Assembly (NCBI GenBank): GCA_013152945.1
Contig: JAADFL010000021.1
Location: 1 to 34,509 of the forward strand
Length of the DNA: 34,509 bases
Source of the DNA: Deltaproteobacteria bacterium
Lineage (GTDB): Bacteria > Myxococcota_A > JAADFL01
Reading direction: 5' to 3'
The position numbers and the translations under genes are program-made. Each line of letters starts with the position of its first letter. Positions within the stretch are counted from its first letter, which is position 1. This document shows positions 6,314 to 33,098 of the stretch, piece after piece. Under the pieces are notes generated by a model, which was not told the DNA's origin, did not search any database, and saw only the letters and a list, made by a program, of their open reading frames with translations.

Positions 6314-6345
6314 CTCTTTCTCCTTTCCGGTCTCCCTGTCGAGAC

Positions 6346-11575: not shown

Positions 11576-11691
11576 CAGAATCCCGATTCCCCCGCAAACC
11601 GGACTCTCCGGGTTCTCCCGATGTCACCGATCCAAAACAGTGCATTTGAATTTTATTAGCACTGAACGATATGGGATATACAAGGAGGTTT

Positions 11692-15514: not shown

Positions 15515-16056
15515 AGCTCATACTTGTTGGAGTCAGGGGTTCGGGCAAAACCACTGTAGGCTCCATGGCGGCCGAGGAGATTGGAGCCGGATTTATCGAC
15601 ATGGATACCGAGATCGAAGCGGTTGCAGGCAACAAGATAAGTGATATCTTCGCAGGCACCGGCGGGGAGAGCAAGTTCAGGAGCCTCGAGTCCCTTGTGC
15701 TTTTAAGAATTGCCGACATGAATCCACCTGAAAAGGATTTGATTATATCCACGGGCGGCGGCATTGTGATCGAGAGAAGAAACAGGAAGATTCTCCGCAG
15801 GATGGGGCACGTTGTCTGGCTGCAGGTCAGCGCGGATCAGGCCGTCTCCAGAACAGCAGGCTCGGACAGGCCCTCCCTGACCGGGCTTTATCCTCTCGAT
15901 GAAGCAAAAAAAATGATTTCCAGTAGATGGAACCTGTACGAATCAATTGCCGACAGCGTGGTTGTTACAGACGCAAGGACGATACAAGACGTATGCAACG
16001 AAATCGTTACAATCTGGCACGAACTCAATCCAGCCGAATTCAAATCAGGCAGATGA
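15511..16056 (+). CDS. aroK: Shikimate kinase
   Basis: A 181-aa P-loop kinase that phosphorylates shikimate with ATP. Walker A GVRGSGKT (7-14), the shikimate-binding D30-x-D32 (FIDMDTEIE), R57 (ESKFRSLE), STGGGIV (80-86) and the lid RPSLTG are all present. It starts at GTG within the end of aroA and is the last gene of the aro operon. Its end overlaps the end of hpnE, which comes from the opposite strand, by about 12 bases. Chorismate synthase (aroC) is not in the window. Confidence 0.93.
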   Translation: MKLILVGVRGSGKTTVGSMAAEEIGAGFIDMDTEIEAVAGNKISDIFAGTGGESKFRSLESLVLLRIADMNPPEKDLIISTGGGIVIERRNRKILRRMGHVVWLQVSADQAVSRTAGSDRPSLTGLYPLDEAKKMISSRWNLYESIADSVVVTDARTIQDVCNEIVTIWHELNPAEFKSGR

Positions 16057-17379: not shown

Positions 17380-17400
17380 CCAGCCAGCGAAATTCCTTTC

Positions 17401-18255
17401 TTAAACCACTGCCACGAGAGCGGCTATGAGACGTCTCTTCACCGCTATTTTCGCCTTTGTCAACGCAGGAGGCCGTGCCTGTCCGACTTTTGGAGAAAGG
17501 GCGGACCGTTCCTCTACCCTGTCCAGCAGGGAGGAATAGATCTCCCGCAATATTTCACCGAAATAAAAGGCCCGCCTTTTTGACGGCTCCAGCGAAGCCT
17601 TTGCCATCCTGTAGTATTCCCGCGCTCGCGCAATTTCGAACATCATCAGTCGATACACGGCGCCGGCATTTCGACCAAGTACGAGGTCTTGTTCGCTGAC
17701 CCCGTTGTCATGAAGATCCTCGAGAGGAAGGTATATCCGGCCCCGTGCGGCGTCTTCTGAAACATCCCTCAGGATATTCGTGAGCTGCATTGCAATTCCA
17801 AGGTTCTCCGCGTACATGTCCACGTCTCTTCCGGTGAAACCAAGCAGCCTGGTGCAAACCAAACCGACAACCCCGGCGACCCTGTAACAATAAGCATACA
17901 GATCGGTAAAGGATTCGTACCTGTCTTTGTCCAGGTCCCAGGAAACTCCCTCGATTATTGCCAAGAGCCACTCCTTGGGTACGCCGCTCTTTGCAAGTGC
18001 CGGCGCCAGGGCCTTCATCACGGTCTCCCGGGCACCCCTGCCGTAACTCCTGTTCACTTCATCGGTCCAGTATCGAAGGCGCCCGGACTTCTCGGCCCAA
18101 GTGCCTGCACAATCGGCTGCATCGTCCACGGCCCTGCAAAAGGCATAGAAAGAGACCAGGCTGTTCCTCTGCTCTCCCGGGAGTGACAAAATCGCGGCGG
18201 CCATGTTGCTGTGAGCCTTTTTCAATGCTTCGATGCAGTAATTTACAGGATCCAT
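17401..18255 (-). CDS. hpnD: Presqualene diphosphate synthase
   Basis: A 284-aa all-helical trans-prenyltransferase. The first aspartate motif is FCRAVDDAAD (39-48), then AYCYRVAGVVG, and the second is NILRDVSEDAARGRIYLP (160-177). HpnD condenses two FPP into presqualene diphosphate. It is told apart from hpnC by its sequence type and by its place next to hpnE. GAGGTGG precedes the ATG. Nine bases separate it from hpnC upstream. Confidence 0.92.
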   Translation of the reverse strand: MDPVNYCIEALKKAHSNMAAAILSLPGEQRNSLVSFYAFCRAVDDAADCAGTWAEKSGRLRYWTDEVNRSYGRGARETVMKALAPALAKSGVPKEWLLAIIEGVSWDLDKDRYESFTDLYAYCYRVAGVVGLVCTRLLGFTGRDVDMYAENLGIAMQLTNILRDVSEDAARGRIYLPLEDLHDNGVSEQDLVLGRNAGAVYRLMMFEIARAREYYRMAKASLEPSKRRAFYFGEILREIYSSLLDRVEERSALSPKVGQARPPALTKAKIAVKRRLIAALVAVV

Positions 18256-18264
18256 TTCACCACC

Positions 18265-19197
18265 TCAAGAAGCCAAATCGGCAATAGAAAGAAGCAATAC
18301 CTTCAGCCTTGCGGCCTGGGACAGTTTGGGCCTCTTTCTGAATATCCCGGCCTTGAGGTTGCAAACCGATTGGAGCACTGAAAATCCGCCTCGCCAGACC
18401 ATGGATAAATAGAGACTGGCCGGAAAAGACACCAACCTTGGAAGGACCCGCGAATTTTCATACAGGGGAAACACGCGTGATGTAAGCTCAATCAACAGGT
18501 TTTCCAATTGGTAACTTTGCCTGCCGATCAATAAGTCATCCGGGGAAAGGGAAAACGCATCCATGTCTTTTCCGGGCACGTAAACCCTTCCACGCGGCAA
18601 GTCCACCGACAGGTCCTGCCAGAAATTGGTGAGTTGGAGCGCAGTGCACAGTTCGTCCGATGCCTTTATCAACCTCTTGTCGGAGTCCAGACCCAGTACC
18701 CGCAACACGAGTCTTCCAACAGGGTTGGCGGACCTGCTGCAATAATCCAAAACCTGGGGATACGTATCATACCTGAACCCGGCTGCATCCTGCCTAAAAG
18801 CTGAAATCAGATCCTGAAACGGTTCGATCTCCAGTTGGAATTGTTGCCTGGCCCTTGCCAAGGCAATAAAGACCGGGTGGGTCGACCTGCCGTCGAAGCA
18901 ATCCTCGAGTTGCCGTTGCCAGTCATCCAGGTAATCAAGGCCCTTTTCCTTGAAGGCGGGCTCATCGGCAAAATCATCGGCTGTCCTGGCAAAGGCATAG
19001 ATTGCGCTCAAGGCCTCCACAACATGGCGATCGAACAGTGTAAAGGCGACCGGGAAATTCTCGTAGTGCCCCATGGCGGTTTGAACAACATACCGCACCG
19101 ATTGTTCATTGGTCCATTCGCCTGCAACCGGAATCCCTGTAACAGGGCTCCATGGAGCGTGTGACGTTACGGCCCTAGACTGCCTTGCGCGCAGCAT
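18265..19197 (-). CDS. hpnC: Hydroxysqualene synthase
   Basis: A 310-aa homologue of HpnD. Recognisable segments are HYENFPVAFTLF, IYAFARTADDFADEP (first aspartate motif, about 66-80), ANPVGRLVLRVLG, and LTNFWQDLSVDLPRGRVYVP (second motif). HpnC turns presqualene diphosphate into hydroxysqualene. The N-terminus is about 30 residues longer than the core fold. ATG 19197 is preferred, with AAAGG 7 bases upstream; TTG 19203 is possible. The start overlaps the HMG-CoA reductase end by 23 bases, placing squalene synthesis and mevalonate genes in one transcript. Confidence 0.92.
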   Translation of the reverse strand: MLRARQSRAVTSHAPWSPVTGIPVAGEWTNEQSVRYVVQTAMGHYENFPVAFTLFDRHVVEALSAIYAFARTADDFADEPAFKEKGLDYLDDWQRQLEDCFDGRSTHPVFIALARARQQFQLEIEPFQDLISAFRQDAAGFRYDTYPQVLDYCSRSANPVGRLVLRVLGLDSDKRLIKASDELCTALQLTNFWQDLSVDLPRGRVYVPGKDMDAFSLSPDDLLIGRQSYQLENLLIELTSRVFPLYENSRVLPRLVSFPASLYLSMVWRGGFSVLQSVCNLKAGIFRKRPKLSQAARLKVLLLSIADLAS

Positions 19198-20392
19198 GCT
19201 CAAGCCTTTCTTTTTCCATCCGTCTCTGGTGGAGCTTCATGTGCCCCTTCTGAATTCCTTCCGTGGACAGGGCACGCAAGGCCGCCAGGTTACTTGCCAG
19301 GCCTGCCGAAGCAGTTATCCGGCTTAATTGCATTGCAGTTGGATTGCCAAGAAGCTTTATAGCGAATGCAGCCGCAGGATGCACCCTGGTTGTTCCACCC
19401 ACAGTGCCCATTACAAGCGGCATTTCCATTTTTCCGACAAGCTGTCCGTCTTCTCCCACATGCCAGGTCGCAAGCGGCCTGTAACCCTTGCCCTTGCCTG
19501 CATAGGCGTGGGCCCCGGCCTCTACTGCACGCCAGTCGTTGCCCGTGGCCAAAACCACGGCGTCTATACCGTTCAGAATGCCCTTGTTATGTGTAGCCGC
19601 CCTGTAGGGATCCGACTCGGCGAACCTGCTGGCGCCGACTATTCCATCCCTTACCCTCTCACCGGCGTAATCTCCGAACGACAGGGTATGGGGTGATATC
19701 TCAACCCATACACGCACCATCCTATGGTCTGCAAGGTTGGAGAGAATCTTCAACCCGGGATAGCCGCCGCATGCCTCGGCCATTACCGGAGCCAACCGCT
19801 CGGCCATCGTGTTCACCATGTTGGCGCCCATGGCGTCACGACAGTCGACGAACAAGTGCACAACCAGTCTCCCGTCACCCTTGCCCACGTCAGGCCTGAA
19901 CTCCATGTCCCTGGCTCCGCCGCCCAGGGAGACCAATTGCGGCTGGGTTTCATTGGCTATGGCTATCCACTTGTCCTTGCTCTTTTCCAGTTCCCCGGCA
20001 GCGCCAAATGGATCATCCAGACCAAGGATCTCGATTTGGCTTATGGTCACCGGGTCGTCCGCTTCTGTGTGAAACCCCCCGTTTTCCCTTACCAGCACAG
20101 CGGCCTTCGATGCCGCCGCTACAACCGAAGGCTCTTCGATCACCATTGGTATCAAGTAATCCCTGCCATCCACCAAAAAATTGGTCGCCACTGCAAAAGG
20201 CAAGGCCATTGTTCCCACTACGTTCTCTATCAGTCTGTCTGCATGGAATACATTCAGGCCGCCCTGTGCCAAGGCCCATTCGATCGAGGTCCTGTCCATT
20301 CCGGCAAAGCCTGCCACAATCCTGGCCCTCTCCTCAATCGACCTCTTGAAAAATCCGGAAATCCTGGAACTCTGTTTTTCTGCCTCATTCAT
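19175..20392 (-). CDS. mvaA: Hydroxymethylglutaryl-CoA reductase, class II-like
   Basis: A 405-aa enzyme that reduces HMG-CoA to mevalonate, the committed step of the pathway. Class II features: ENVVGTMALPFAVATNF, EEPSVVAAASKAA (catalytic glutamate 86 or 87), DCRDAMGANMVNTMAE, HNKGILNGIDAV (K270), TGNDWRAVEAGAHAYA (D286), MGTVGGTTRVHP and the C-terminal catalytic H384 in IQKGHMK. These match Pseudomonas mevalonii E83, K267, D283 and H381 in order. It has no membrane domain, as expected. Although class II enzymes can be degradative, the surrounding kinases show a biosynthetic role. AAAGGAG lies 7 bases before the ATG. Confidence 0.95.
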   Translation of the reverse strand: MNEAEKQSSRISGFFKRSIEERARIVAGFAGMDRTSIEWALAQGGLNVFHADRLIENVVGTMALPFAVATNFLVDGRDYLIPMVIEEPSVVAAASKAAVLVRENGGFHTEADDPVTISQIEILGLDDPFGAAGELEKSKDKWIAIANETQPQLVSLGGGARDMEFRPDVGKGDGRLVVHLFVDCRDAMGANMVNTMAERLAPVMAEACGGYPGLKILSNLADHRMVRVWVEISPHTLSFGDYAGERVRDGIVGASRFAESDPYRAATHNKGILNGIDAVVLATGNDWRAVEAGAHAYAGKGKGYRPLATWHVGEDGQLVGKMEMPLVMGTVGGTTRVHPAAAFAIKLLGNPTAMQLSRITASAGLASNLAALRALSTEGIQKGHMKLHQRRMEKERLEHAARKAV

Positions 20393-20409
20393 AGTACCAC
20401 TCCTTTACA

Positions 20410-21462
20410 CTAATAATGCTCCTCGGCATTTCGATTACCATCCCGGTCCCAAACACGACCGGCCCGATTAACGTTCTTTCTCGTACCTGCTTCGACCCCG
20501 GCGCGGCTCGGCTCCAGATCCAGGACAAGCATGCCTGCCTTCCTTGCTTCCTCCTCAAATGCGTCCCTGTGGTCCGTATCCGTAAACAATGCCACGCCAA
20601 GGTCGCCAGCACCGGCACCCGATGGTTTGTACACACCGCCATGCATTGCCACGAGATCCAGCAGCTTCGGCGTCGTGCATTCCATCAGGGGCATTCCGCT
20701 TTTTATCCCCAGGCTCATGTACGCATCGGCACAATCCCGGTACGCGTCCAGCACTACTTTCTCATCGCCTTCACAAACAGCCGAAGCCAACCTGCGGGCG
20801 CTATTGGAAATGCAGTCCAGCGCCCCTGCAACTTCACCCCGCGGCATTGATTCGACCCACAACCAAAAACGCCTCAACATGTACGGAGTATTAGACGGCC
20901 TGCCGGTCCACACCACGCTCATCGGCGGCAACCCATCCATCGGCAAGCGTGTCACCGCAGGTTCTCCCCCTTCAGGCCTTTTGTACGAGAACAACCCGCC
21001 ATAGACAGAGGCAGCCACATCCGCCCCGCTGCCCCTTTCCCCCTGGACGATTGACTGTGCCTTGAAAGCACATTCGAATATCCGCTTCCTCGATTTTTTC
21101 GAGCCACAAGATATACCGGCCCATTGGAAGACCGCACCGCACACCCCTGCCGTTGTCGCAGCACTGCTTCCAAGCCCGAGCTTTTGTCCGTGTATGTACA
21201 TTGCAGAAGTATCCACTTCAATGGGGCCAGGGACCGGATCGATTCCACACTGCTCGACTGCCAGGCCGGCGGCAACCCGGGAAAGCCTGGAACCCATCTT
21301 GCGTCCTCCAACACCGGTAATGTCCCTGCCCAGGGTGACGCACGCATTCCTGTTCACTGCGACAACCACTGCATCTCCCCCGAGCACCACCGCGTATTCA
21401 CCGGCGAGCATGAGTTTGCCCGGAGCGGTTACAGTCAGATATTCACCATGGATGCGGTTCAT
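20410..21462 (-). CDS. Phosphomevalonate kinase (GHMP family)
   Basis: A 350-aa GHMP kinase: TAPGKLMLAGEYAVVLGG (substrate and N-terminal motif), KLGLGSSAATTAG (P-loop), ERGSGADVAASVYGG, and the C-terminal GAGAGDLGVALF. It lies between the decarboxylase and HMG-CoA reductase in a mevalonate operon where the other two GHMP enzymes are accounted for, so phosphomevalonate kinase is the remaining step; this is partly by elimination. ATG 21462 (or GTG 21465) follows GGAG by 6-9 bases and lies 13 bases past the decarboxylase stop; upstream in-frame ATGs inside that gene lack a site. Confidence 0.87.
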   Translation of the reverse strand: MNRIHGEYLTVTAPGKLMLAGEYAVVLGGDAVVVAVNRNACVTLGRDITGVGGRKMGSRLSRVAAGLAVEQCGIDPVPGPIEVDTSAMYIHGQKLGLGSSAATTAGVCGAVFQWAGISCGSKKSRKRIFECAFKAQSIVQGERGSGADVAASVYGGLFSYKRPEGGEPAVTRLPMDGLPPMSVVWTGRPSNTPYMLRRFWLWVESMPRGEVAGALDCISNSARRLASAVCEGDEKVVLDAYRDCADAYMSLGIKSGMPLMECTTPKLLDLVAMHGGVYKPSGAGAGDLGVALFTDTDHRDAFEEEARKAGMLVLDLEPSRAGVEAGTRKNVNRAGRVWDRDGNRNAEEHY

Positions 21463-21475
21463 CACGGGTGTCTCC

Positions 21476-22516
21476 TCATTCATGCTCGACATCAACACTG
21501 GCGCCGGGACCGGGCCCGGCGGTTATAACGTGCCGGACTCCGTCCACCTCTTTTAAGATTTTTTCAAAAGCCCGGGCGTGCGCCGCCTCGCAAACCACCA
21601 TTGGGTTGGGTCCTGCATCCAAGGTGAAGTACCCCGGCAATCCCCGGGACCTGGCCCTGCGTACTGCATGAAAAGCCTGCATGGTCGGCCCGAGCCAGTA
21701 AACTATGCCGGGATCGGCAGCCATGGCGCAGGCATGCATACGCAGGCAGCTCCGTTCCACAACCGGCCCGAGACGATTGATATCCCTTTCCAGGATTGCA
21801 GATCTCGCCTCTTCTACATCATTAAAAGAGCTTTCGAGGAACGGCTTGTAAAATGGCGATGTCCCGGCAGTGGCTGCCATGCCTCTTCTTGAAGATATGT
21901 ACTTTTCCCCCCGGTCCACCACGCCTACCAGTATCTTGAGATCCCAGTGCATCGGATCAGCCACGATTCGCACCCGAAAGTCCAGGCCGGCCCGGTTATC
22001 TCCGGGAATGATTTCCGCAAAGCCCCCAACTATGCTTCTCGATGCCGATCCGGAGCCCATTCTTGCAAGACCTGCCATCTCCTGTTGGTTCAGGTCCATG
22101 CCGGCGGCACAGGTCGCAGCAAGCGCCAAGGCGGCAAACCCGGATGCGGACGAGGCCATGCCCGCTTTTGTCGGGAAATCATTATTCGTATCCACCCTGG
22201 CCCGGCCCGTAATGCCGGCCCTGGAACGTACCAGGTCCAGGAAGGATTCCACCCTCGATGCGAACCCCGGCTCGGCAGGCTTTCCATTGAAATAGATTAC
22301 ATCTTCTTTTCCGCCTGATTGGAAATCCACCGCAGTAGTCGTCTTAAGGCGATCCAAGGTCATGGAGATACTTGGACCTGCAGGCAGGTTCAGTTCAGCA
22401 TCCCTCTTGCCCCAATATTTCACCAGGGCTATATTGCTGCATGCTTTTGCAACAGCTTTCAACTCCTCCCCCTCTCCATACCCATGTTTACCGGCCCCGT
22501 GTCTATTGTCCGGCAA
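21476..22516 (-). CDS. mvaD: Diphosphomevalonate decarboxylase
   Basis: A 346-aa GHMP-family enzyme forming isopentenyl diphosphate from mevalonate diphosphate with ATP. Signatures: SNIALVKYWGKRD (near 27-39), SISMTLD, MASSASGFAALA (P-loop), MGSGSASRSIVGGF, and TLDAGPNP with the catalytic aspartate. The TTG start at 22516 has GGGAG 5 bases upstream and lies inside the end of the mevalonate kinase gene (58-base overlap); the catalytic domain starts near residue 20, so a later start cannot be excluded. Confidence 0.93.
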   Translation of the reverse strand: MPDNRHGAGKHGYGEGEELKAVAKACSNIALVKYWGKRDAELNLPAGPSISMTLDRLKTTTAVDFQSGGKEDVIYFNGKPAEPGFASRVESFLDLVRSRAGITGRARVDTNNDFPTKAGMASSASGFAALALAATCAAGMDLNQQEMAGLARMGSGSASRSIVGGFAEIIPGDNRAGLDFRVRIVADPMHWDLKILVGVVDRGEKYISSRRGMAATAGTSPFYKPFLESSFNDVEEARSAILERDINRLGPVVERSCLRMHACAMAADPGIVYWLGPTMQAFHAVRRARSRGLPGYFTLDAGPNPMVVCEAAHARAFEKILKEVDGVRHVITAGPGPGASVDVEHE

Positions 22517-23520
22517 CCCGCTCCCAAATCATTCCAATATTTGAGGACCCTGGCCTGTACAACAGTATCTCCGCCGGGTACCAGGGCGACTACACATCCA
22601 CCCCGTCCTGCGCCTGTCAGCTTGGCGCCCAAGGCGCCTGCTCTCATTGCCCGGTCCACCATCAAATCCATCATTGGGTGCGAGACTCCAATCTCCCTTA
22701 GCAGTCCATGGTTCTTTTTCATCGCCTTTCCCAGGCCTGCCGGATCCGCTGCAACAGATGCACGGGCGCCTTCCAGGGCGATATGATCCATTTCTTCCAA
22801 GATGGATTTGAACCATGCAGGCTTCATACTCTGCATACGCCTGACGTCTTCCACGACCTTCTTCGTGTTCCTTGGGATTCCTGTATTCCCAATCACCAGC
22901 CGTAAATCCACGGGTGCGGTGTACGCGCCGGACAAACCCGCTCCAAGGCTGTCAAAGCCTGCGGGAGGGGAAACATGTCCCTTGCCAAGGAAAAGACAGG
23001 CGCCTCCAAAAACACTGGTTGTGTTGTCTATTCCAGAGGGAATGCCATGGAATATCCGTTCCGCCTCCTTGGCAAGATCGTTCAGTTCGACCTTCGGGAG
23101 TTCCTTGCCGAGAACCGAGGACAAGGCCTTGAGCAGTCCGACACACAATGCAGCGGAGCTGCCCAAACCCGCACGACACGGCAGCCAGGTTTCGACGAGC
23201 AGTCTGTACCCGCATTGCACGGGAAACTTGTCGCGGACAAAGCGTAACAGTTCACCCACAATATCGTTGTCTTCATCGGACGAATAAAGATCCCACCCCG
23301 GCACAGATAATTCGAGGCGGATCGAATCCGAGGGCACCGCTTTTACACGCAATGCATCGGGAAGACCTACGGCCAGTGCAGTCATTCCATACACGACCGA
23401 ATGTTCTCCCAGTAATATCAACTTGCCATTGGCATCTGCCCTTGCATGCACCAAGGCCTGTTTCGATGGTTGCCCGCAACTGCCGCTGGTTTTCTCGGTT
23501 ACCAACCGAGTAACTGCCAT
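22459..23520 (-). CDS. mvk: Mevalonate kinase
   Basis: A 353-aa GHMP kinase for the ATP-dependent phosphorylation of mevalonate. Motifs in order: ANGKLILLGEHSVVYG (near 30-45), CRAGLGSSAALCVGLL (P-loop), FHGIPSGIDNTTSVFGG with the catalytic aspartate, and AKLTGAGRGGCVVALV at the C-terminus. The start is uncertain: ATG 23520 gives about 30 residues before the conserved core and leaves a 26-base gap after the isomerase stop; the frame stays open to GTG 23589, overlapping that gene. Confidence 0.92.
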   Translation of the reverse strand: MAVTRLVTEKTSGSCGQPSKQALVHARADANGKLILLGEHSVVYGMTALAVGLPDALRVKAVPSDSIRLELSVPGWDLYSSDEDNDIVGELLRFVRDKFPVQCGYRLLVETWLPCRAGLGSSAALCVGLLKALSSVLGKELPKVELNDLAKEAERIFHGIPSGIDNTTSVFGGACLFLGKGHVSPPAGFDSLGAGLSGAYTAPVDLRLVIGNTGIPRNTKKVVEDVRRMQSMKPAWFKSILEEMDHIALEGARASVAADPAGLGKAMKKNHGLLREIGVSHPMMDLMVDRAMRAGALGAKLTGAGRGGCVVALVPGGDTVVQARVLKYWNDLGAGCRTIDTGPVNMGMERGRS

Positions 23521-23546
23521 ATTTTCCAGGTCCGGGCCGGCCAATT

Positions 23547-24632
23547 TCAGCGTCCTTCTTTTTTCAAGGCCTGGCGTGTCCATGCCCACAGGACCGGCCC
23601 GATAACCCTTGGAGAATCGACAAGCTCCTTGAACGACTTACAGCCTGTCAAAAAGACCGCGAGCCTCAACTCCTCGATGAATTTCCGTAAAAATCCAGCA
23701 CAACCTTTTCGTCCGCCTGAAAGGTACGCCTCCATTACAGGCCCGGCAACGCCGCACAGCTTGGCTCCGAGGGCCAGGCACTTTGCCGCATCCAGGCCTG
23801 TGCGAAGCCCCCCGGAACCGATTAGGTCCAGCCCGGTACCGTCCAGCATCATCAGGCAGGCGGCAGTCGGTATTCCCCAGTCCCAAAAAGTTTCTCCCAG
23901 GCCCCCGGCTTCGCCCGAAGCCCTTCCTCTTAAAGCCTCGACGCCTACCCACGACGTCCCTCCTGCACCTGCCACATCCACAATTCGTACACCTGCATCT
24001 GCAACGGATCGTGCTGTAACCGGATCTATCCCGGAACCAACCTCCTTGATAATCACCGGTACATCGAGTTCCTCCACCAACCTCGAGAGGGATTCCAAGG
24101 ATCTCTTGAAATTCGAATCACCCTCGACTTGAACCGCCTCCATGGCAGGATTGAGGTGTACAAAGAGTGCATCTGCTCCGACAATATCGACTGCATTCAC
24201 AATCTTTTTTGTCTCGGCCTGGATAACCTGGGCGATCCCGATGTTCCCGCCGATAAAAACATCGGGGGCAATATGCCTCAACATGTAATCCTTTGCCCTG
24301 GCCGGGTTTTCCAGCATAGCCCTCTGGCTTCCGAGGCCGATACCCAGGCCCAGTTCGGCCGCAACTTCGGCCAGTTCCATGTTTACCTTTCCGGCCGTGC
24401 TTGTTCCCCCTGTCATGGAACTTATTAGGACCGGTGCGTTCATGCTCCTGCCGAGAAACTCGGTACGCAGATCCACCTCGTCCAGGCTGGTACCCGGCAA
24501 GGCTCTTGGAACAAGATCGACCTCCTCCAACAATGTCGTCTTGTTCCTGAACCTCGGCCCCCCGGATTCAAAGAGTTCGATATGCTCATCCTTTCTTTTT
24601 TCAGTCGCCCTGTGTGCCCCTAGTAATTCCAC
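23547..24632 (-). CDS. fni: Type 2 isopentenyl-diphosphate delta-isomerase
   Basis: A 361-aa FMN enzyme interconverting IPP and DMAPP, the first gene of the mevalonate/squalene operon. Motifs: TEKRKDEHIEL (10-20), LISSMTGGT (69-77), GLGSQRAML (99-107), NIGIAQV, FVHLNPAMEAVQVEGD (158-172), IIKEVGSGI and the glycine-rich FMN phosphate site DLIGSGGLRTG. In the active-site segment the usual HLN-x-x-Q-E reads HLNPAME: M164 stands where most members have the glutamine implicated in proton transfer; E165, which binds magnesium, is kept. GTG 24632 is chosen, with GGGAGG 8-9 bases upstream, since the conserved N-terminus begins there. Confidence 0.92.
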   Translation of the reverse strand: MELLGAHRATEKRKDEHIELFESGGPRFRNKTTLLEEVDLVPRALPGTSLDEVDLRTEFLGRSMNAPVLISSMTGGTSTAGKVNMELAEVAAELGLGIGLGSQRAMLENPARAKDYMLRHIAPDVFIGGNIGIAQVIQAETKKIVNAVDIVGADALFVHLNPAMEAVQVEGDSNFKRSLESLSRLVEELDVPVIIKEVGSGIDPVTARSVADAGVRIVDVAGAGGTSWVGVEALRGRASGEAGGLGETFWDWGIPTAACLMMLDGTGLDLIGSGGLRTGLDAAKCLALGAKLCGVAGPVMEAYLSGGRKGCAGFLRKFIEELRLAVFLTGCKSFKELVDSPRVIGPVLWAWTRQALKKEGR

Positions 24633-24942
24633 GGTCCGCACCTCCCGCCCCAAAGCCCTGGTTGAACCAATAAACATGTGCCTGTTCAAATAAGTGTTGC
24701 CAATAATGTGCCAGAAAAATAACACCATGTAATAAAAGCGATTTTCAGTTAATCTTAGGGAGAATGACTTTTCTTTCGTGCGGTTCTGCACAAAACCCGT
24801 GCACAAACGAACGACATAATTTAATTAAAGCACTTGCCGTCGGCAACCGTTCCAACCAAAACGGGATCTACGGCACGATGATTGCTTGGGATTTCGAACA
24901 TGTCCCAACGCTTACCGGGCCGATGGGTAAAAGGAGGTAGAC
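24633..24942. other. Divergent control region between the isomerase operon and FPP synthase
   Basis: A 310-bp AT-rich gap between divergent starts (minus-strand isomerase operon, plus-strand prenyltransferase). It must hold promoters for both. I see a short inverted repeat TGCAC/GTGCA at 24787-24803 and the AT-rich run ATAATTTAATTAAAG near 24816, but no promoter I can call with confidence. Translations across it look non-coding. Confidence 0.4.
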
Positions 24943-25872
24943 ATGGCCATGACAACAACAACGGCTGAAAGAAGCACCGGCAGCAACTCTTTCGACTTGC
25001 ACTCTTACCTGAAATACAACAAGGATAAAGTTGACAACGCCTTGAAGGAAGTCATGAAAACATATGACTGTCCTTCTCCATTGCAAGAGGCCATGCTTTA
25101 CAGCCTGGCGGCGGGCGGCAAGCGGTTGCGGCCCATCCTGGTCATAGCCGCGTCGAATCTGAACGGAAGTCCTGCCTGCGATCCCATGCCGGCCGCCTGC
25201 GCCCTTGAATTCGTCCATACCTATTCGCTGATACACGATGACCTGCCGGCTATGGACGACGATGATTTTCGGAGGGGGAAACCCACGAATCACAAGGTGT
25301 TCGGCGAGGCCCTGGCCATACTGGCAGGTGATGCACTACTCACCGAGGCATTCACCATCATATCCAAGGCCTATGGCTCTGAATTTCCCGCTATTGCAGC
25401 CGGGGTCACGGCCGAGCTAGCATCGAGCGCCGGCGCAGAGGGAATGGTGGGAGGCCAGGTGCTGGATACCATTGCAACAGGTAACACTCCCGACATCGTT
25501 GAAATGGAACGCCTGCACAGGATGAAGACCGGGGCCCTGATAAAGAGCGCACTTTTGATAGGAGGCATAGTCGGCGGTGTCGGCCCTGAAAAACTGGATG
25601 CATTGGAAAGGTATGGACTGGAATTGGGCCTGGCCTTCCAAATAACGGACGATCTCCTCGACGTAACAGGCGACCTCGTGTCACTGGGAAAGACCCCCGG
25701 CAGCGACGAGAGGATGAACAAGCCGACCTATCCCAAGCTCCTTGGAATCGAAGCCGCGCGCAGCCTGGCCGCCGAGGTGCGGGACAGGGCTATAGATTCC
25801 TTGAAGAGCTTTGGAAATAATGCAGAGCCATTGTGCGCTATCGCACATTACGTGGTGGAACGTTCGTTTTAG
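24943..25872 (+). CDS. ispA: Farnesyl diphosphate synthase (type II polyprenyl synthetase)
   Basis: A 309-aa trans-prenyltransferase. The first aspartate-rich motif is HDDLPAMDDDDFRRGKPTNH (from 98), with the two-residue insertion of bacterial FPP synthases and Y94 five residues before it as in E. coli IspA; the second is FQITDDLLDVTGD. AAGGKRLRP (57-64) binds IPP. The product is expected to be FPP, the substrate for HpnD encoded across the divergent region; a longer product cannot be ruled out from sequence. AAAGGAGG precedes the ATG. The gene stands alone and converges on the U32 gene with 20 bases between. Confidence 0.9.
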   Translation: MAMTTTTAERSTGSNSFDLHSYLKYNKDKVDNALKEVMKTYDCPSPLQEAMLYSLAAGGKRLRPILVIAASNLNGSPACDPMPAACALEFVHTYSLIHDDLPAMDDDDFRRGKPTNHKVFGEALAILAGDALLTEAFTIISKAYGSEFPAIAAGVTAELASSAGAEGMVGGQVLDTIATGNTPDIVEMERLHRMKTGALIKSALLIGGIVGGVGPEKLDALERYGLELGLAFQITDDLLDVTGDLVSLGKTPGSDERMNKPTYPKLLGIEAARSLAAEVRDRAIDSLKSFGNNAEPLCAIAHYVVERSF

Positions 25873-25892: not shown

Positions 25893-27236
25893 TCAGGCCG
25901 GATGCTGACTGCTTCTCTTTTTAGCTACATACTTAACCATCTCCACGTAAGGCTTCACAAATCCTGAAGTCCGTCCGGGCTCGGGCTCTACCAATGTGCC
26001 CATGTACGAGTTCCAGAAAGATCCGTCATGCAACTCATCGAGTACGTTCGCAAAAAGGCCCAGTGCACGGTCGCGGTACGATGGATCGATTTGCACCACC
26101 TTGTCGGCCCACCTTTGGCAATACCCGCATCGTTCACAGTCCATGGCCTGGCAACCTTGTTTCAAAAACCTGTCTATGAAACCGTCAAGGGCCTTGTTGT
26201 CTATGTACACGCCGGGCTCGCCCGTCCTCGGGAACAAGAGCCCGATTGTACGCCCCAGGTCCACCACCTTTGCGAATTTCAACAAGTTGATAGCCTTGGG
26301 TTTCATGAAGTACTTGAGCAGCCTTCGAAGGCTGAAGAGGTCCTTCTCCCTCTTTGAGAACTTGTTTTCATCGTATGAAAAGAACTGAACCAGGTCCAGG
26401 AGGTTTCCATCGTAACTGCGATTTACATACGCATTGACACGTTCGAGGAGTATCTTCGTAGGTGTGTTTCTCTCGACGATCTTGAAATTTTCGTACCCGA
26501 TTGCCTCATAGTGATGCAGGTCCTCGGGTCTTATCCAGTTGGCCCTTAAGTAGTTGATAGGCTCTGAAAGCTTATAGTTGAGGCAAAACAAGATACTGTA
26601 GTCCAATGGAATGGATCTGCGGTCCCTGTCCTCGTCATCCTGGGATGCGTGTGAGAGCGAACATGCATGGTTGGCTGCTATGGCGCAATCTTGTCTGCAC
26701 GAGTTATTGACTATCAGTTGGAGATCACATTTAACCGACTCCCTGATAGCGCGAAGGGCCTCGAATTCGCGGTAGATGTTTACCTCGCTCACCACGATGC
26801 AATCCGCGCCGTTGTCCTCCCAGAACCTGGCCTTTCTCGCATTGTCCGTATACCTGTGTGAACTGACCCTGACCTTGAAATGAGGGTAGCGCCGCTTTAT
26901 TGTCTTCAGGAAATAAAGCGTTCCGACAGTGATCGAGTCCACACCTATTTCAGAAAGCCAGTCGAGCATCTTTCTCAGTTTTTGCTGCCCCTGCTTGGAG
27001 AACTCCAGGTTTGCCATACACGATGCATTGAGCAGGTAGTTGAATTCGATATTCCTTGCATGGTAATCCTTTACAGCTTGTTCGACTCCCTTTCGATCCA
27101 CCTTGGGCAGGTAAAAAGAGGGCCTGCCGCCTCCGAAAGGATCCGCCGTCAATTTGCCGTATACCTCGTACACCGGGAAACCTTCGAGCCTTTTTGGCAG
27201 GCTCGGATCGAAGTTACAGGCCACACTCAAACGCAT
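25893..27236 (-). CDS. U32-family Fe-S protein, candidate O2-independent hydroxylase
   Basis: A 447-aa member of the U32 (COG0826) family by overall pattern: an N-terminal barrel-like segment, then the four-cysteine set C180, C184, C192 (NNSCRQDCAIAANHACSLSH) and C218 (LFCLNY), typical of the 4Fe-4S site in UbiU/UbiV, TrhP and RlhA. Unusually it has a second cluster-like set near the C-terminus, C362-x4-C367-x2-C370-x2-C373. Family members once called peptidases are now known in several cases to hydroxylate quinone precursors or RNA without O2, with prephenate needed in the RNA cases. Here the gene overlaps the chorismate mutase/DAHP synthase gene by 10 bases. The substrate is unknown; a terpenoid is a hypothesis from context. 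Confidence 0.8.
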   Translation of the reverse strand: MRLSVACNFDPSLPKRLEGFPVYEVYGKLTADPFGGGRPSFYLPKVDRKGVEQAVKDYHARNIEFNYLLNASCMANLEFSKQGQQKLRKMLDWLSEIGVDSITVGTLYFLKTIKRRYPHFKVRVSSHRYTDNARKARFWEDNGADCIVVSEVNIYREFEALRAIRESVKCDLQLIVNNSCRQDCAIAANHACSLSHASQDDEDRDRRSIPLDYSILFCLNYKLSEPINYLRANWIRPEDLHHYEAIGYENFKIVERNTPTKILLERVNAYVNRSYDGNLLDLVQFFSYDENKFSKREKDLFSLRRLLKYFMKPKAINLLKFAKVVDLGRTIGLLFPRTGEPGVYIDNKALDGFIDRFLKQGCQAMDCERCGYCQRWADKVVQIDPSYRDRALGLFANVLDELHDGSFWNSYMGTLVEPEPGRTSGFVKPYVEMVKYVAKKRSSQHPA

Positions 27237-28333
27237 TTCACATCCTCCATTCTTTTAACCGGTGCCGGCGCGGCCCCTGGTATGATCCTTCTTACCGACT
27301 CGGCCAGTGCAGCGAACTCGTTAACCGTCAGTTGTTGCTCCGCATCCGATTTGGCCACAAGCGGATCATGGTGGACCTCGATCATCACCCCGTCCGCGCC
27401 GGCTGCAAAGGCTGCTGCGGCGAGCGGCTCCAGCAGATCTTTTCTTCCAACAGCGTGGCTGACATCGACGATGACAGGCAAGTACGTATTCTTCTTGAGC
27501 AGCGGCACTGCGCTTATGTCCAGGGTGTTTCTCGTGGATTTCACGAACGTCCTGATACCGCGTTCGCACAAAATGATATCATTGTTTCCGGCAGCCATTA
27601 TGTACTCGGCGGCATTTAGAAATTCATCCAGGGTAGCCATGAAACCCCGCTTCAGGAGAACCGGCTTGCCTATTCGTCCGACTTCTTTGAGAAGTTCGAA
27701 GTTTGACATGTTCCTGGTTCCAATCTGGAGGATACCGGCATGAGCTGCAACCAGTTCCGCACTTCTCGTATCCAGGACCTCTGTTACCGAGACCATGCCG
27801 TGCCTGGTCGCCACCTCCTCCAGTATGCGCAAGCCCTCTTCGCCCATGCCCTGAAACGAGTACGGAGAGGTGCGCGGTTTATATGCTCCGCCCCGCAATA
27901 ATCGAACTCCCTGCCTTGACAGGCCGGCAGCCACTGCATCCAACTCGTCCAAGCCTTCCACGGAGCACGGTCCGGCAATATACTGTGGATAGCGGCCGAG
28001 CGTAACGCCTGATACATCAATTACCTTGTCCTTGGCTCCGGGGCTCCTGTATACTCTCAATGACTCTATTGTCTTGCGGGACATGAGGCCCAGGCTTGCC
28101 TTGAAGACCTCCTTGAACAGGCTGCGGATAACCTCGTCCGGGAACGGGCCCTGGTTGGCCTTGATCAGGCGCTCCAACATCTCGTGTTCACGCCTGGGGT
28201 CGAAAAGGTCTTCTCCCTTCTTCTCCTTCAAATTCCGCATATGCGAAACCAGCGCACCCCGCTCTGAAAGCAAATCCAGGAGTTTTTCGTTGTTTTCGTC
28301 GATTAATCTTCGAAGCTCTGTTACACCATTCAA
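27227..28333 (-). CDS. Fused chorismate mutase / DAHP synthase
   Basis: A 368-aa bifunctional enzyme. Residues 1-90 are an AroQ-type helical chorismate mutase (ELRRLIDENNEKLLDLLSERGALV, DPRREHEMLERL), making prephenate. Residues 100-355 are a type I-beta DAHP synthase: YIAGPCSVE, LLRGGAYKPRTSPYSFQG, LLKRGF, CERGIRTF, VDVSHAVGRKDL and DGVMIEVHHDP. It thus catalyses the first shikimate step and a step after chorismate. Such fusions usually permit feedback control by prephenate or chorismate. TTG 28333 is the start, with AAAGGAGG 8 bases upstream. It is placed away from the aro operon, coupled to the U32 gene. Confidence 0.94.
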   Translation of the reverse strand: MNGVTELRRLIDENNEKLLDLLSERGALVSHMRNLKEKKGEDLFDPRREHEMLERLIKANQGPFPDEVIRSLFKEVFKASLGLMSRKTIESLRVYRSPGAKDKVIDVSGVTLGRYPQYIAGPCSVEGLDELDAVAAGLSRQGVRLLRGGAYKPRTSPYSFQGMGEEGLRILEEVATRHGMVSVTEVLDTRSAELVAAHAGILQIGTRNMSNFELLKEVGRIGKPVLLKRGFMATLDEFLNAAEYIMAAGNNDIILCERGIRTFVKSTRNTLDISAVPLLKKNTYLPVIVDVSHAVGRKDLLEPLAAAAFAAGADGVMIEVHHDPLVAKSDAEQQLTVNEFAALAESVRRIIPGAAPAPVKRMEDVKCV

Positions 28334-28408: not shown

Positions 28409-29815
28409 TCAGAAGGCAACCGTCATGCCTCCACCAAAGGCGAGCATGTGAGCTGAAAAAGTCGCGGCCCGGATTCTCGAAGCAACAACAGCCTTTTCCG
28501 ACTTCTCATACCTTCCGGCCTCCATCCACGAGTATTGCAAAAAGAGATCCAAAGAATAGCGCCAACCGTTTTCATCACCCGGTCCTGTTACAAGGGTCGC
28601 TCCCATGGTAAACATGTGCCTGTCGGAATCCAGCAGGTTGGTAATACGGGCATTACGCCCCTGATCGGGCGCGGGAGTTGGAGAAAACCGATATCCCGTG
28701 CGAATTCGAACACTGTCCGAAGGCTTCCATTCGATTCCCAGGGCTGGGGAAAAAGTTGATTTAAATTCCGGTGCTTGGCTTGCCTTCACATCATTGATGG
28801 TAACATTCGCCCCCGGAGTCTCGCGCAGTATGGTCCACTTGCCTGCTGGATTCCGGTAATCATCCCACCTAAACCACGTCAAATCAGCGGCCGCAACCAA
28901 TCCCTTGCCAAAATCATACGAGATACCGGCAGACAACTGATCGGGCTGGACCAGGAGAGAACGATCGAATATCATTTTTATATTCTCCTCGAAATAACCT
29001 TTGGTCGAAATCAATTGGACAAGGTGCATTTTATCCACGATCTTGCCCCGGAAGGAAAATCCCAGCTTGAACCCCGGCACGATATCTATTGTCATACCTG
29101 CTGTTGGTGTGACAAAGGTATAGGATGACACGTCGACCGCCTCCTCCGGCAGGGAGGCATCCTTGTCGCCCAGCAGAAACGAAGTGTCAACGCCTATGTC
29201 GACGCCGACGTCAAAAGCAAAGGAAACAATCAACCCGGCCCCTAAAGAGAGCCACGGGACCGGAGATACTGCGCCTCCAAGGTACAACAAGGTCCTTTCC
29301 GGCGGTTCAAACATGAAAAACATGGGCGTATCTTCATATGGAATGCGTTGATGTATTACTGTGTGTGTGGGAATCTCCGCAAACATCCCTATGCTCATCC
29401 TGGTTTTCAAGTACTCGTTTTCTATCAGAGAATCGAGTGGCAACAGCAAACCGATACCTAAAACGCCCATCACGTGTTCGGTCTTTGAAAGGCCTTCTTT
29501 AGGCAATGACAGGGTTCCACCATATGCATCGCTTGTTTCCAGGTCCTGCCTGGTCGACAACTTCTGATATCCAAATTGAACCGATAGCTCGGGGGAATCC
29601 ACCCAGACCAGGTTGGCCGGGTTGTAGTACAAGTCTCCCGGCCCGCCGGGAATCGCGGTTCGAGCACCGGCCATTCCACGGGAAGCTGAATCGAACCCGA
29701 ATACATGCGATGCCTGGGCCCATACCGGATAAGAAAGAAACTGTAATAATAAGCCGATAGAGAAAGGCAGCATGCAGGAATGTAAATAACAGGCTTTCCC
29801 TTTTTTGCTATTCAT
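28409..29815 (-). CDS. FadL/OmpP1-family outer-membrane transporter
   Basis: A 468-aa beta-barrel protein. A signal peptide (basic MNSKKGK, hydrophobic run, cleavage likely after VWAQA near residue 35) is followed by FGFDSASRGMAGARTAIPGGPGDLYYNPANLVWVD, the N-terminal pattern of FadL/TodX proteins, then many alternating amphipathic strands, ending with F as outer-membrane proteins do. FadL channels move hydrophobic molecules such as long-chain fatty acids or toluene across the outer membrane. It heads the run with the DAHP synthase fusion (75 bases downstream) and stands divergent to the triterpene cyclase, so passage of a hydrophobic terpenoid is a reasonable guess. Confidence 0.85.
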   Translation of the reverse strand: MNSKKGKACYLHSCMLPFSIGLLLQFLSYPVWAQASHVFGFDSASRGMAGARTAIPGGPGDLYYNPANLVWVDSPELSVQFGYQKLSTRQDLETSDAYGGTLSLPKEGLSKTEHVMGVLGIGLLLPLDSLIENEYLKTRMSIGMFAEIPTHTVIHQRIPYEDTPMFFMFEPPERTLLYLGGAVSPVPWLSLGAGLIVSFAFDVGVDIGVDTSFLLGDKDASLPEEAVDVSSYTFVTPTAGMTIDIVPGFKLGFSFRGKIVDKMHLVQLISTKGYFEENIKMIFDRSLLVQPDQLSAGISYDFGKGLVAAADLTWFRWDDYRNPAGKWTILRETPGANVTINDVKASQAPEFKSTFSPALGIEWKPSDSVRIRTGYRFSPTPAPDQGRNARITNLLDSDRHMFTMGATLVTGPGDENGWRYSLDLFLQYSWMEAGRYEKSEKAVVASRIRAATFSAHMLAFGGGMTVAF

Positions 29816-30031: not shown

Positions 30032-32002
30032 ATGACTCAAATTGTCCACGATAACATTGAAAAGGCGCTGGCAAACCTGGCCTCTATCCAAGAGGAAAAC
30101 GGCGCATGGAACGGTGATTACAGCGGGTCGTTGTTCTTGACTCCTTTCTTCGTTTGCGCCTGTTATGTCGCAGACATCCGGCTCCGGGAGGATACAGTAC
30201 GAGGCTTCTTGCATTACCTGGACAGCAATCAGGAGCCTGACGGCGGATTCGGACTGCATGTTGAGGCCCCGAGCTGCATGTTTACCACTGTCCTCTCTTA
30301 CATTTCCTTTCGTATACTTGGCCGCGGTCCGGATCATCCGGCAGCACTCCGGGCAAGAGAATGGATACTCTCTCACGGCGGGGCCGAAGCCATTCCTCTG
30401 TGGGGGAAATACATACTCGCGGTCATGAACCTTTATGACTACCAAGGAGTAACTCCCTTGCCGCCGGAGTTGTGGCTGCAACCGAAAAGCTCTCCCTTGC
30501 ATCCGGGCAGATTCTGGTGCCATGCACGAATGGTATTACTGCCGATGTGTCATCTCTACGGAGCAAGGCATCACATGGTCGAGACCGATCTCACGAGAGA
30601 ACTTAAAACAGAAATTTTCTCCACGACATGGGATGAAATCGACTGGAGGCACTGCCGGAGCTTGGTTGCGGACACGGATTCTTATGTTCCAAGAAACCCG
30701 GTGCTGAAGTTGCTGGACCTCTTCCTGGTTGCATTCGAGCAAATCACGCCCGGTAAACTGCGACATAAAGCCCTTAAAGACACATTGGACAGAATAACTT
30801 ACGAGGACCGAACCACCAATTACATCGATATTGGTCCTGTCAACAAGTTGTTTCACACCATGGTGGCCTTTTTCGAGTACGGCCCTGATTCAGAGGCTTT
30901 CAAGTCACATATCTCACACCTGTATGACTACCTGTGGCAAGTCGACGGATTCGTCAAGGTAAACGGGTACAATTCCACCGAGCTTTGGGATACCGTATTT
31001 GCGTTGCAATCCGTGTTCGCAGCAGGAGCGGACAGGATGAAACCAGGTATAATAGAAAAAGCTTGCAAGTTCGTTGCCGAGGCCCAGGTCAAGGAAGACC
31101 TGCACCAGGGCGAGCGCTACTACAGGCACAAGAGCAAGGGCGGATGGCCGTTTTCGAACAATCCACACGGATGGCCCATCACGGATTGTACTGCCGAAGG
31201 CATCAAGACGTGCCTAATAACTGAAAAATTTCTTGGTCAATTACCTGTCTTGGAGAATTCCTTAAAGGATGCGGCGGACCTGATCCTGTCCATGCAAAAC
31301 AGGGACGGAGGTTGGGCATCCTATGAACTTACGAGGGGAACCAGGCTCTTGGAAATGCTCAACTCATCCGATGTCTTCATGAACATCATGATAGATTACA
31401 GTTATGTTGAATGCACATCATCATGCATTCAGGGACTGGCCATGTTCAATTCCAGGTTTCGAGATCACAGGAACAGCGACATCAAACTAGCCATTGAAAG
31501 AGGAAAAAACTTTCTCCTTCGGTCACAACAGGATGACGGCAGTTTCGTGGGTTCCTGGGGAATCTGTTATACATACGGCACTTGGTTCGGTGTAAAGGGC
31601 CTGCTGGCGGCAGGAGTGCCGCCGGATCATTCTTCGATCAAAAATGCGTGCAGGTTTCTCCTTGGCAAACAAATGCCTGACAATGGATGGGGAGAAAGCT
31701 GGCTTTCCTGCAAAGAAGGCAGGTACGTTCCCACTGAAAAAGGCCAGGTGGTCATGACATCCTGGGCGTTGATGACCTTGCTCGAGGCCGGAGGTAAGGA
31801 AAAGGAAGCCATTGACAAAGGGGTGGAATTCCTGTGCAGGCGGCAACTCGATGATGGAAGCTGGCCTGTGGAGCACATAGCCGGAATATTCAATAAGACC
31901 TGTGCAATAAACTATGACAATTACAGAAACTATTTTCCACTTTGGGCCTTGGCATTGTACGAGCAAAAGTTTCAAAAAAGAGGCGGACACATTGGGCACT
32001 GA
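30032..32002 (+). CDS. Oxidosqualene-cyclase-type triterpene cyclase (DCTAE motif)
   Basis: A 656-aa cyclase with repeated QW motifs (QEPDGGFG, QNRDGGWASYE, QQDDGSFVGSWG, NGWGESW, RQLDDGSWP). It belongs with sterol-type cyclases: the acid motif is D385-C386-T-A-E, not the DxDDTA of squalene-hopene cyclases. C386 and C461 (YVECTSS) match the cysteines beside the acid in human lanosterol synthase (D455, C456, C533), and H164 (FWCHAR) matches H232. Y313, H379 and I383 match the trio Y410, H477 and I481 that marks cycloartenol synthases. The expected substrate is 2,3-oxidosqualene, yet no squalene epoxidase gene is in view. ATG 30032 has GGAGG 7 bases upstream. The next gene overlaps by 11 bases. 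Confidence 0.93.
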   Translation: MTQIVHDNIEKALANLASIQEENGAWNGDYSGSLFLTPFFVCACYVADIRLREDTVRGFLHYLDSNQEPDGGFGLHVEAPSCMFTTVLSYISFRILGRGPDHPAALRAREWILSHGGAEAIPLWGKYILAVMNLYDYQGVTPLPPELWLQPKSSPLHPGRFWCHARMVLLPMCHLYGARHHMVETDLTRELKTEIFSTTWDEIDWRHCRSLVADTDSYVPRNPVLKLLDLFLVAFEQITPGKLRHKALKDTLDRITYEDRTTNYIDIGPVNKLFHTMVAFFEYGPDSEAFKSHISHLYDYLWQVDGFVKVNGYNSTELWDTVFALQSVFAAGADRMKPGIIEKACKFVAEAQVKEDLHQGERYYRHKSKGGWPFSNNPHGWPITDCTAEGIKTCLITEKFLGQLPVLENSLKDAADLILSMQNRDGGWASYELTRGTRLLEMLNSSDVFMNIMIDYSYVECTSSCIQGLAMFNSRFRDHRNSDIKLAIERGKNFLLRSQQDDGSFVGSWGICYTYGTWFGVKGLLAAGVPPDHSSIKNACRFLLGKQMPDNGWGESWLSCKEGRYVPTEKGQVVMTSWALMTLLEAGGKEKEAIDKGVEFLCRRQLDDGSWPVEHIAGIFNKTCAINYDNYRNYFPLWALALYEQKFQKRGGHIGH

Positions 32003-33098
32003 TTTCAAGGTGGTTGTCATCGGTGCCGGACCTGCCGGATCAGGTGCGGCCATCCGTTTACTACAAAGGGGAGTCGGACCCGTGCTCCTCTTGGACAGGC
32101 GCAAGTTTCCACGGGTCAAGCCATGCGCGGGAGGCATTTCAACAAGGGCGTCCAAGGCGCTGAAGGATCTCGGCGTATACAGTAACATTGAGGAACAAGC
32201 TTACGAAGTCACCGGTGCCGTAATTGTAAGTCCTTCGGGAAGATCCATGCATCTTGCAGGCGATAAAGGCGCGCTGGTCCTTGAAAGATCGCGCTTGGAT
32301 ACCCTGCTCAAGGATGCTGCTGTTTCAGAAGGAGCCGAGTTTGCGGACAAAACAATGATAGAATCCCTCCAACCAGAAAGACATGGAAGACTGGTGGTGC
32401 GGCCGGCCGGGGCCGAGCCGATATCCTGTTCATGGGTGGTGATAGCCACAGGTGCATCGGCATCCCTGGCCAAAACGCCCTTGATGCCTGAAACACTCCT
32501 GACCATGACAGGATGGTACAAGGGTATTGACTTTCTGCCCGGAACCATCGAGATGTTCTTCGACCAAGAACTTCATCCTCATTATGGATGGCTTTTTCCG
32601 GAAGGTGCGGGCAGGGCCAACATCGGTATCTGCATGGATCGAAGGAGGCTTGGTAACAGGAATATCAAGGCCGTGTTTTCATCGTTCCTGGACCGGCACT
32701 TTGCAAAGAGGCTTGTAAAAGCAGAACCGGTAAGAAAGGCCATGGGATACCCGATAGCAGCCTCCAAGGTGACTTTGAAACCAAAGACCCCCCCGGGGGT
32801 GCTGGTTGTCGGAGAGGCTGCGCGACTTGCCAACTACTTCACGGGCGAGGGAATATACCACGCCCTGGCAAGCGGCATATATGCTGCCGACGCAATAGCA
32901 AATGTGCAAACAAAGGGTCTTCCCAAGGCCCGGGCGGCTGAACAATATTTCAGGAAAACAAAAATGTCGCTTGGCCCGGCTTTGTACGCATATGCATCCA
33001 TCTCAGGTTTCATTCATCCTGCCATGGAACTCCTTACAAGGCTTCATACCATGCCCGGCATGAAACCATTTATCAGGGCCGCCCTGGCCAAGCTCTGA
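31992..33098 (+). CDS. Geranylgeranyl-reductase-family flavoprotein
   Basis: A 368-aa FAD protein of the p-hydroxybenzoate hydroxylase fold. FAD motif VVVIGAGPAGSGAAIRL (7-23) with D35 at the strand end; K-P-C45-A-G-G, the cysteine motif of geranylgeranyl reductases; HYGWLFPEGAGRANIGI; and the second FAD motif VVGEAARLANYFTGEGIYHALASG. Members reduce isoprenoid double bonds; the wider fold also contains monooxygenases such as squalene epoxidase. It starts at TTG 31992 with AAAGAGG 8 bases upstream, inside the end of the cyclase gene, so the two are coupled and it probably acts on the cyclase substrate or product. Confidence 0.87.
   Translation: MGTDFKVVVIGAGPAGSGAAIRLLQRGVGPVLLLDRRKFPRVKPCAGGISTRASKALKDLGVYSNIEEQAYEVTGAVIVSPSGRSMHLAGDKGALVLERSRLDTLLKDAAVSEGAEFADKTMIESLQPERHGRLVVRPAGAEPISCSWVVIATGASASLAKTPLMPETLLTMTGWYKGIDFLPGTIEMFFDQELHPHYGWLFPEGAGRANIGICMDRRRLGNRNIKAVFSSFLDRHFAKRLVKAEPVRKAMGYPIAASKVTLKPKTPPGVLVVGEAARLANYFTGEGIYHALASGIYAADAIANVQTKGLPKARAAEQYFRKTKMSLGPALYAYASISGFIHPAMELLTRLHTMPGMKPFIRAALAKL

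Follow-up and report, generated by a model that had tools for sequence, protein, structure and literature searches.

The oxidosqualene cyclase (OSC) encoded in the DNA analysed here (one stretch of 34,509 nucleotides, hereafter the window) is, in the reading that we favour and hold to be reasonably probable, supplied with oxidosqualene by an O2-independent squalene oxygenase of the U32 family that would use the oxygen of prephenate and would replace or back up squalene epoxidase (SQE). A broader proposition, on which we are evenly balanced, is that a full O2-independent sterol-forming pathway, with U32 epoxidation by prephenate oxygen and ordinary OSCs, operates across several phyla in bacteria that are anaerobic or microaerobic, and that some facultative bacteria have both the U32 route and SQE. 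Textbooks present sterol synthesis as dependent on O2, and the steranes of ancient rocks are taken as signs of oxygen. Should the U32 route exist, O2 would be dispensable for oxidosqualene and simple cyclised sterols, the sequence of steps in sterol evolution would need to be rethought, and alkene oxygenation would be a new reaction for U32 oxidases. Given that the proposal specifies one gene and one cosubstrate, it is testable.

The window is a contig of a 4.84-Mb draft genome that is 94% complete, and its features are listed in Table 1. The OSC reading frame, whose length was counted from ATG, matched TIGR01787 (squalene/oxidosqualene cyclases) at 603 bits (cut-off, 323), whereas its matches to TIGR03463 (2,3-oxidosqualene cyclase; 711 bits) and TIGR01507 (hopene cyclase; 255 bits) were below the cut-offs of those models (851 and 431, respectively). 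The best relative of solved structure was human lanosterol synthase (E = 5e-175). When the two proteins were aligned, D385, C386 and C461 of the OSC corresponded to human D455, C456 and C533; W319, F374, Y431, W509 and F620 corresponded to human W387, F444, Y503, W581 and F696; and the Y/H/I trio (human positions 381, 449 and 453) was found as Y313, H379 and I383. The DxDDTA motif of squalene-hopene cyclases was absent from the OSC, in which the site reads ITDCTAE. An earlier, sequence-only reading of this DNA had described a cyclase with these acid-supporting residues and this trio but without DxDDTA, and the alignment to the human enzyme bore that description out.

Relatives of the OSC were collected as 344 stretches among the contigs of 84,980 species genomes. 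In the resulting tree, the window's enzyme grouped with OSCs, away from squalene-hopene cyclases, and fell inside the bacterial OSC radiation; its nearest neighbour was L009, from a Myxococcota MAG (G057) that also lacks SQE (pair support, 98). The phylogeny that the sequence-only reading had proposed as a check on an unusual enzyme thus revealed no outlier, and the partner proved to be a second SQE-lacking Myxococcota MAG. Moreover, the OSCs of genomes that carry the U32 subfamily described below without SQE (U32-only genomes, which appear to be draft assemblies) matched the other OSCs in the catalytic Asp, in both Cys and at all aromatic positions of the cavity that were tested. Judged by its sequence, the window's cyclase is an ordinary bacterial OSC with all epoxide-handling residues intact, and because the catalytic and cavity residues are unchanged in U32-only genomes, the cyclase still looks made for oxidosqualene. 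Altered forms of DCTAE were observed in other cyclases: DCTAL in L031 and L039 (two Methylothermaceae MAGs), DCTGE in L009, and DCTGD in L087 and L088 (two Chitinophaga-labelled MAGs).

Table 1. Features of the window, in order of position
Feature	Coordinates	Strand	Basis or remark
Cytochrome bd oxidase subunits	1340-3720		
Ferritin-like protein and rubrerythrin	4733-5245, 5741-6349		Near the other contig end
Shikimate genes aroB, aroD-aroE fusion, aroA, shikimate kinase	11671..16056	+	TIGR01357, TIGR00507 and TIGR01093, TIGR01356, shikimate kinase models
HpnC, HpnD, HpnE (squalene synthesis)	16045..19203	-	TIGR03464 264 bits, TIGR03465 239 bits (cut-off 279), TIGR03467 366 bits
Mevalonate kinase, diphosphomevalonate decarboxylase, phosphomevalonate kinase-like, HMG-CoA reductase	19175..23589	-	TIGR00549, TIGR01240, TIGR01220 (weak), TIGR00532
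Type 2 isopentenyl-diphosphate isomerase	23547..24806	-	TIGR02151 374 bits
Farnesyl diphosphate synthase	24943..25872	+	NF045485 355 bits
U32-family protein, candidate O2-independent squalene oxygenase, 447 aa	25893..27236	-	PF01136, fold, co-occurrence
Chorismate mutase-DAHP synthase fusion, probable prephenate supply	27227..28333	-	NF009239 481 bits; PF01817, PF00793
FadL/TodX-type outer-membrane protein	28409..29815	-	PF03349 46.6 bits; between chorismate mutase-DAHP synthase and OSC
OSC, 656 aa, cycloartenol-synthase-type residues	30032..32002	+	TIGR01787, human lanosterol synthase, conserved residues
GGR-family flavoprotein, probable sterol C-24 reductase (Bsr-like)	31992..33098	+	TIGR02032 172 bits (cut-off 159)

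HpnC, HpnD and HpnE lie on the same contig as the mevalonate set, in agreement with the earlier statement that squalene is made by HpnCDE at this locus. SQE, which that reading had described as absent from the locus, was found neither in the window nor in the rest of the genome: PF08491 (SE domain) gave 0 matches in the whole 4.84 Mb, and when an HMM was built from 25 SQEs of bacteria, its sole match was one of 30 bits, to a FAD motif (real SQEs score 266-313 bits). Because these two whole-genome searches were negative, the earlier suggestion of an epoxidase gene elsewhere is unsupported. The genome also contained no P450 (PF00067), and hydroxylases of the AltSQE type (FA_hydroxylase, PF04116) were absent both from it and from 12 other U32-only genomes, so that the recommended search for squalene monooxygenase or an alternative epoxidase came back empty for all three families. 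PF04116 had one match each in G064, G070, G081 and G085.

The designation of the genome as anaerobe-like calls for a qualification. Cytochrome bd, the ferritin-like protein and rubrerythrin are oxygen-tolerance genes typical of anaerobes or microaerobes, and the one heme-copper match in the genome, a protein of 781 aa, looks like a quinol NO reductase; on the strength of cytochrome bd and this protein, the organism may be microaerobic. To the window's genome, 50 related OSC genomes were added, giving a set of 51. SQE was absent (PF08491) in 13 of the 50, and a 14th (G093) had a doubtful match, so that 15 of the 51, G093 doubtfully among them, were counted as lacking SQE. Strong aa3-type oxidases were present in 4 of these 15 genomes vs 31 of the 32 SQE-bearing genomes tested (p = 8e-7), and G057 and G102 contained neither a heme-copper nor a bd oxidase.

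Besides isoprenoid genes, the families that recurred near OSC in SQE-lacking genomes were U32 and chorismate mutase-DAHP synthase. The sequence-only reading had posed a real paradox, but had not connected these two neighbours to the cyclase. Scores against a model of the U32 subfamily were bimodal among the 51 OSC genomes (560 bits and above, or 184 and below), and the subfamily was present in 13 of the 15 genomes without SQE vs 6 of the 36 with SQE (p = 4e-6). When a phylum sample of 377 Myxococcota genomes was examined, several of them common to both sets, the subfamily was detected in 14 of 62 OSC-bearing genomes (a count that takes in G258 by a fragment) vs 0 of 315 OSC-free genomes (p = 3e-12); among the OSC-bearing Myxococcota, it occurred in 7/9 without SQE vs 7/53 with SQE (p = 2e-4). 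Position followed the same pattern. Of 17 U32 genomes that lack SQE, 14 had U32 and OSC on a single contig, vs none of 13 U32 genomes that have SQE (p = 5e-6), and in many SQE-bearing genomes SQE adjoins OSC instead. On the tree, SQE changed at least 6 times and U32 changed 9 times, and the independent pairs (4 opposite, 0 same) are too few to be significant alone.

Gene order was conserved as well. The order farnesyl diphosphate synthase, chorismate mutase-DAHP synthase, U32, GGR, OSC was kept in L011, L079 and L080, in which the GGR gene likewise adjoins OSC, and farnesyl diphosphate synthase was in the same cluster in these three loci and in L018, L245 and L246. In the window, the genes for chorismate mutase-DAHP synthase and U32 overlap by 10 bases. 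Chorismate mutase-DAHP synthase adjoined the U32 subfamily in 21 of 28 loci, some of them away from OSC, and stood beside 0 of 9 sister U32s, whose loci were available with a flank of 1.5 kb only. Long OSC reading frames in L009 and L018, considered as fusions, were rejected as miscalls; there, a different frame immediately upstream holds the U32 gene.

The pattern had exceptions. U32 was missing from four OSC genomes without SQE, G093 and G106 in the first set and G020 and G162 in the phylum sample. P450s were found in three of these four (G020, G093 and G106) and in none of 17 U32-bearing SQE-lacking genomes; by their P450s the three look aerobic, and may be aerobes whose SQE escaped recognition. 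Conversely, strong aa3-type oxidases were encoded by the U32-only genomes G070 and G081, and these oxidases, like cytochrome bd in the window's genome, make O2 possible for those genomes.

The U32 protein of the window matched PF01136 at 44.6 bits (cut-off, 22.4) and the U32 structure 5d88 at E = 2e-14, and hhalign related it to E. coli UbiU, UbiV, TrhP and RlhA with a probability of 96%. An AlphaFold model computed from 32 sequences reached pLDDT 88 and pTM 0.89 (pLDDT 73 from the first nine sequences). In a fold comparison (VIA-align), this model superposed on 5d88, the sole U32 structure among the matches listed, with Z 20.6 and an rmsd of 2.8 over 230 aligned residues; the next match had Z 12.7. 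All of the first nine members share eight Cys (7, 180, 184, 218, 362, 367, 370 and 373), with the spacing C7...C180-X3-C184-X33-C218 and C362-X4-C367-X2-C370-X2-C373, a number that would suit two Fe-S clusters in one chain. The motif CX6CX15CX3/4C of UbiU, TrhP and RlhA was absent from the window's protein, and at the Glu that stands eight residues before the first motif Cys (E162 of TrhP), hhalign placed Q173, which is unconserved. Lacking this Cys spacing and this Glu, the protein was left outside the subgroup of characterised U32 oxidases, and we propose by analogy that it may work as they do. Tyr replaces Cys7 in the U32 proteins of L154 and L155 (G089 and G092, closely related and SQE-bearing), where function is perhaps relaxed or changed.

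Oxygen chemistry of the kind proposed has precedent in this family. UbiU-UbiV are O2-independent hydroxylases in ubiquinone biosynthesis (PMC6747719, PMC10470549), and the RNA hydroxylases TrhP and RlhA depend genetically on prephenate (PMC6599085). A review names prephenate as the oxygen source in anaerobic ubiquinone synthesis and argues that more than one Fe-S cluster is needed (PMC11574389). With UbiU-UbiV, the window's protein shares the family, the predicted TIM-barrel fold, conserved Cys for Fe-S clusters and a setting in a lipid pathway; moreover, E. coli pairs O2-dependent with O2-independent hydroxylases, as do the genomes with SQE and U32. UbiU-UbiV, however, is a heterodimer with four Cys in each subunit, whereas the window's U32 is a single chain with eight conserved Cys of other spacing, is linked to chorismate mutase and OSC, and has an alkene as its proposed substrate. 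TrhP and RlhA, also U32 proteins that need prephenate from chorismate mutase, act on RNA and have the Glu-Cys-Cys spacing not found here. Against the proposal, the substrates known to be hydroxylated by U32 oxidases are aromatic rings or pyrimidines, rather than an isolated alkene as considered here. Bacterial OSC systems with SQE, for example in Myxococcota (PMC4919349, PMC12004948), have the same cyclase family with the same catalytic and cavity residues, squalene made upstream, and likewise a Bsr-type partner reductase; they differ from the window, where U32 and chorismate mutase-DAHP synthase stand beside OSC and SQE is missing. According to PMC4919349, none of the OSC-bearing bacteria it examined was an anaerobe, and that study left an alternate anaerobic pathway open. 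In the open-access literature searched, we found no earlier report of a U32-sterol link or of O2-independent squalene epoxidation.

The remaining genes of the locus fit around these steps. The GGR reading frame opens at 31914, inside the OSC gene, but translation more likely starts from an in-frame TTG at 31992. Its translation contains YGWLFP and KPC motifs, and the GGR homolog Bsr is the sterol C-24 reductase of Myxococcota (PMC12004948). Like Bsr, the window's GGR lies beside sterol genes and has YxWxFP and the active-site Cys; unlike in Bsr systems, its genome has no SQE or P450. Likened to Bsr by family and motifs, the flavoprotein is a probable sterol C-24 reductase. That it is a disguised epoxidase was considered, but was rejected as the preferred reading in view of its reductase motifs and its C-24-reductase homolog. 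The FadL/TodX-type protein could move hydrophobic substrates, a putative link to the pathway. An Rfam search of the window gave no matches.

From these gene families, a route can be drawn in which acetyl-CoA would pass through mevalonate to farnesyl diphosphate, and HpnCDE would form squalene. Chorismate mutase forms prephenate, and the shikimate genes of the window act upstream of chorismate and prephenate; the mutase fused to DAHP synthase would provide the cosubstrate. The U32 protein, with its two predicted Fe-S clusters, would transfer an O atom of prephenate to squalene, yielding 2,3-oxidosqualene, and the two-gene module of chorismate mutase-DAHP synthase and U32 would in this way stand in for squalene epoxidase. 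The OSC, its epoxide-protonating Asp and two Cys unchanged, would then convert 2,3-oxidosqualene to a cycloartenol-type product, and the GGR-family flavoprotein encoded by the overlapping gene would saturate the C-24 double bond. Since P450s and sterol-methyl-oxidase-type hydroxylases are absent, the pathway probably ends in a 4,4,14-trimethyl sterol whose side chain is saturated; C-14 demethylation in particular is unexpected where P450s are absent.

Other explanations were weighed against the same data. The OSC might cyclise squalene itself, with the U32 protein then hydroxylating C-3 (or another position) with prephenate oxygen. This scheme explains the same co-occurrence and adjacency and is nearer to the C-hydroxylation known for U32 oxidases, and two OSC residues deviate solely in two U32-only genomes, the window's being one (human P101 to S and Y237 to L). 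We nevertheless consider it not very likely, given that the catalytic Asp, both Cys and the tested cavity aromatics are common to U32-only and other OSCs, that 13 genomes have SQE, U32 and OSC together, and that SQE and U32 take turns beside OSC, a pattern suggestive of one and the same step. The option of a squalene-using cyclase, raised earlier, is accordingly disfavoured, because the active site is indistinguishable from that of OSCs in SQE-bearing genomes. It also seems unlikely that a divergent O2-dependent epoxidase, missed by the models, feeds the OSC in a microaerobe while U32 has some other role in the pathway. Cytochrome bd in the window and terminal oxidases in some U32-only genomes would accommodate such an enzyme, the GGR neighbour and SQE are members of one flavoprotein superfamily, and the GGR proteins of G102 and G103 match the SQE profile weakly (about 41-44 bits). 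Against this, PF08491, the 25-sequence HMM, PF00067 and PF04116 recovered no epoxidase from the window's genome, G057 and G102 lack terminal oxidases of both types, and GGR carries the YxWxFP and Cys motifs of a reductase and belongs to the family of the characterised C-24 enzyme.

The SQE of a draft genome could also lie in the unassembled 6%, with the U32-chorismate mutase pair standing near the OSC by chance (as, for example, a quinone or RNA hydroxylase). We regard this as very unlikely: SQE is equally absent from 13 U32-bearing OSC genomes of the 51 and from phylum-sample genomes that are 96% (G203) and 99% (G250) complete, and no U32 subfamily member occurred without OSC in the 377 genomes. 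NO dismutases, in which Asn replaces one His of a pair, would let the organism make its own O2 for an unknown oxygenase, and the sole heme-copper match is of quinol-NO-reductase type; this idea is extremely improbable, for GTAHHYYWFG in that protein retains the histidine pair and its apparent quinol site, TWHLQLA, seems intact (both read by eye), and no oxygenase able to use the O2 was found. The evidence thus favours the earlier option of an epoxide, or its equivalent, made by an unrecognised route, which we would assign to the U32 protein and prephenate.

Two further observations concern relatives of the genes discussed. A sister U32 group (L181, L183 and L185-L190; G186, G286, G301 and G426) scored about 240-380 bits against the subfamily model, with several copies within one genome and chorismate mutase not seen adjoining. 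Finally, in several Myxococcota, SQE and OSC matches shared one open frame of ~1150 aa (G337:C442:38458-41286, G404:C1:253705-256542, and in G226, G177 and G426); from their sequences, these frames are probable natural epoxidase-cyclase fusions.
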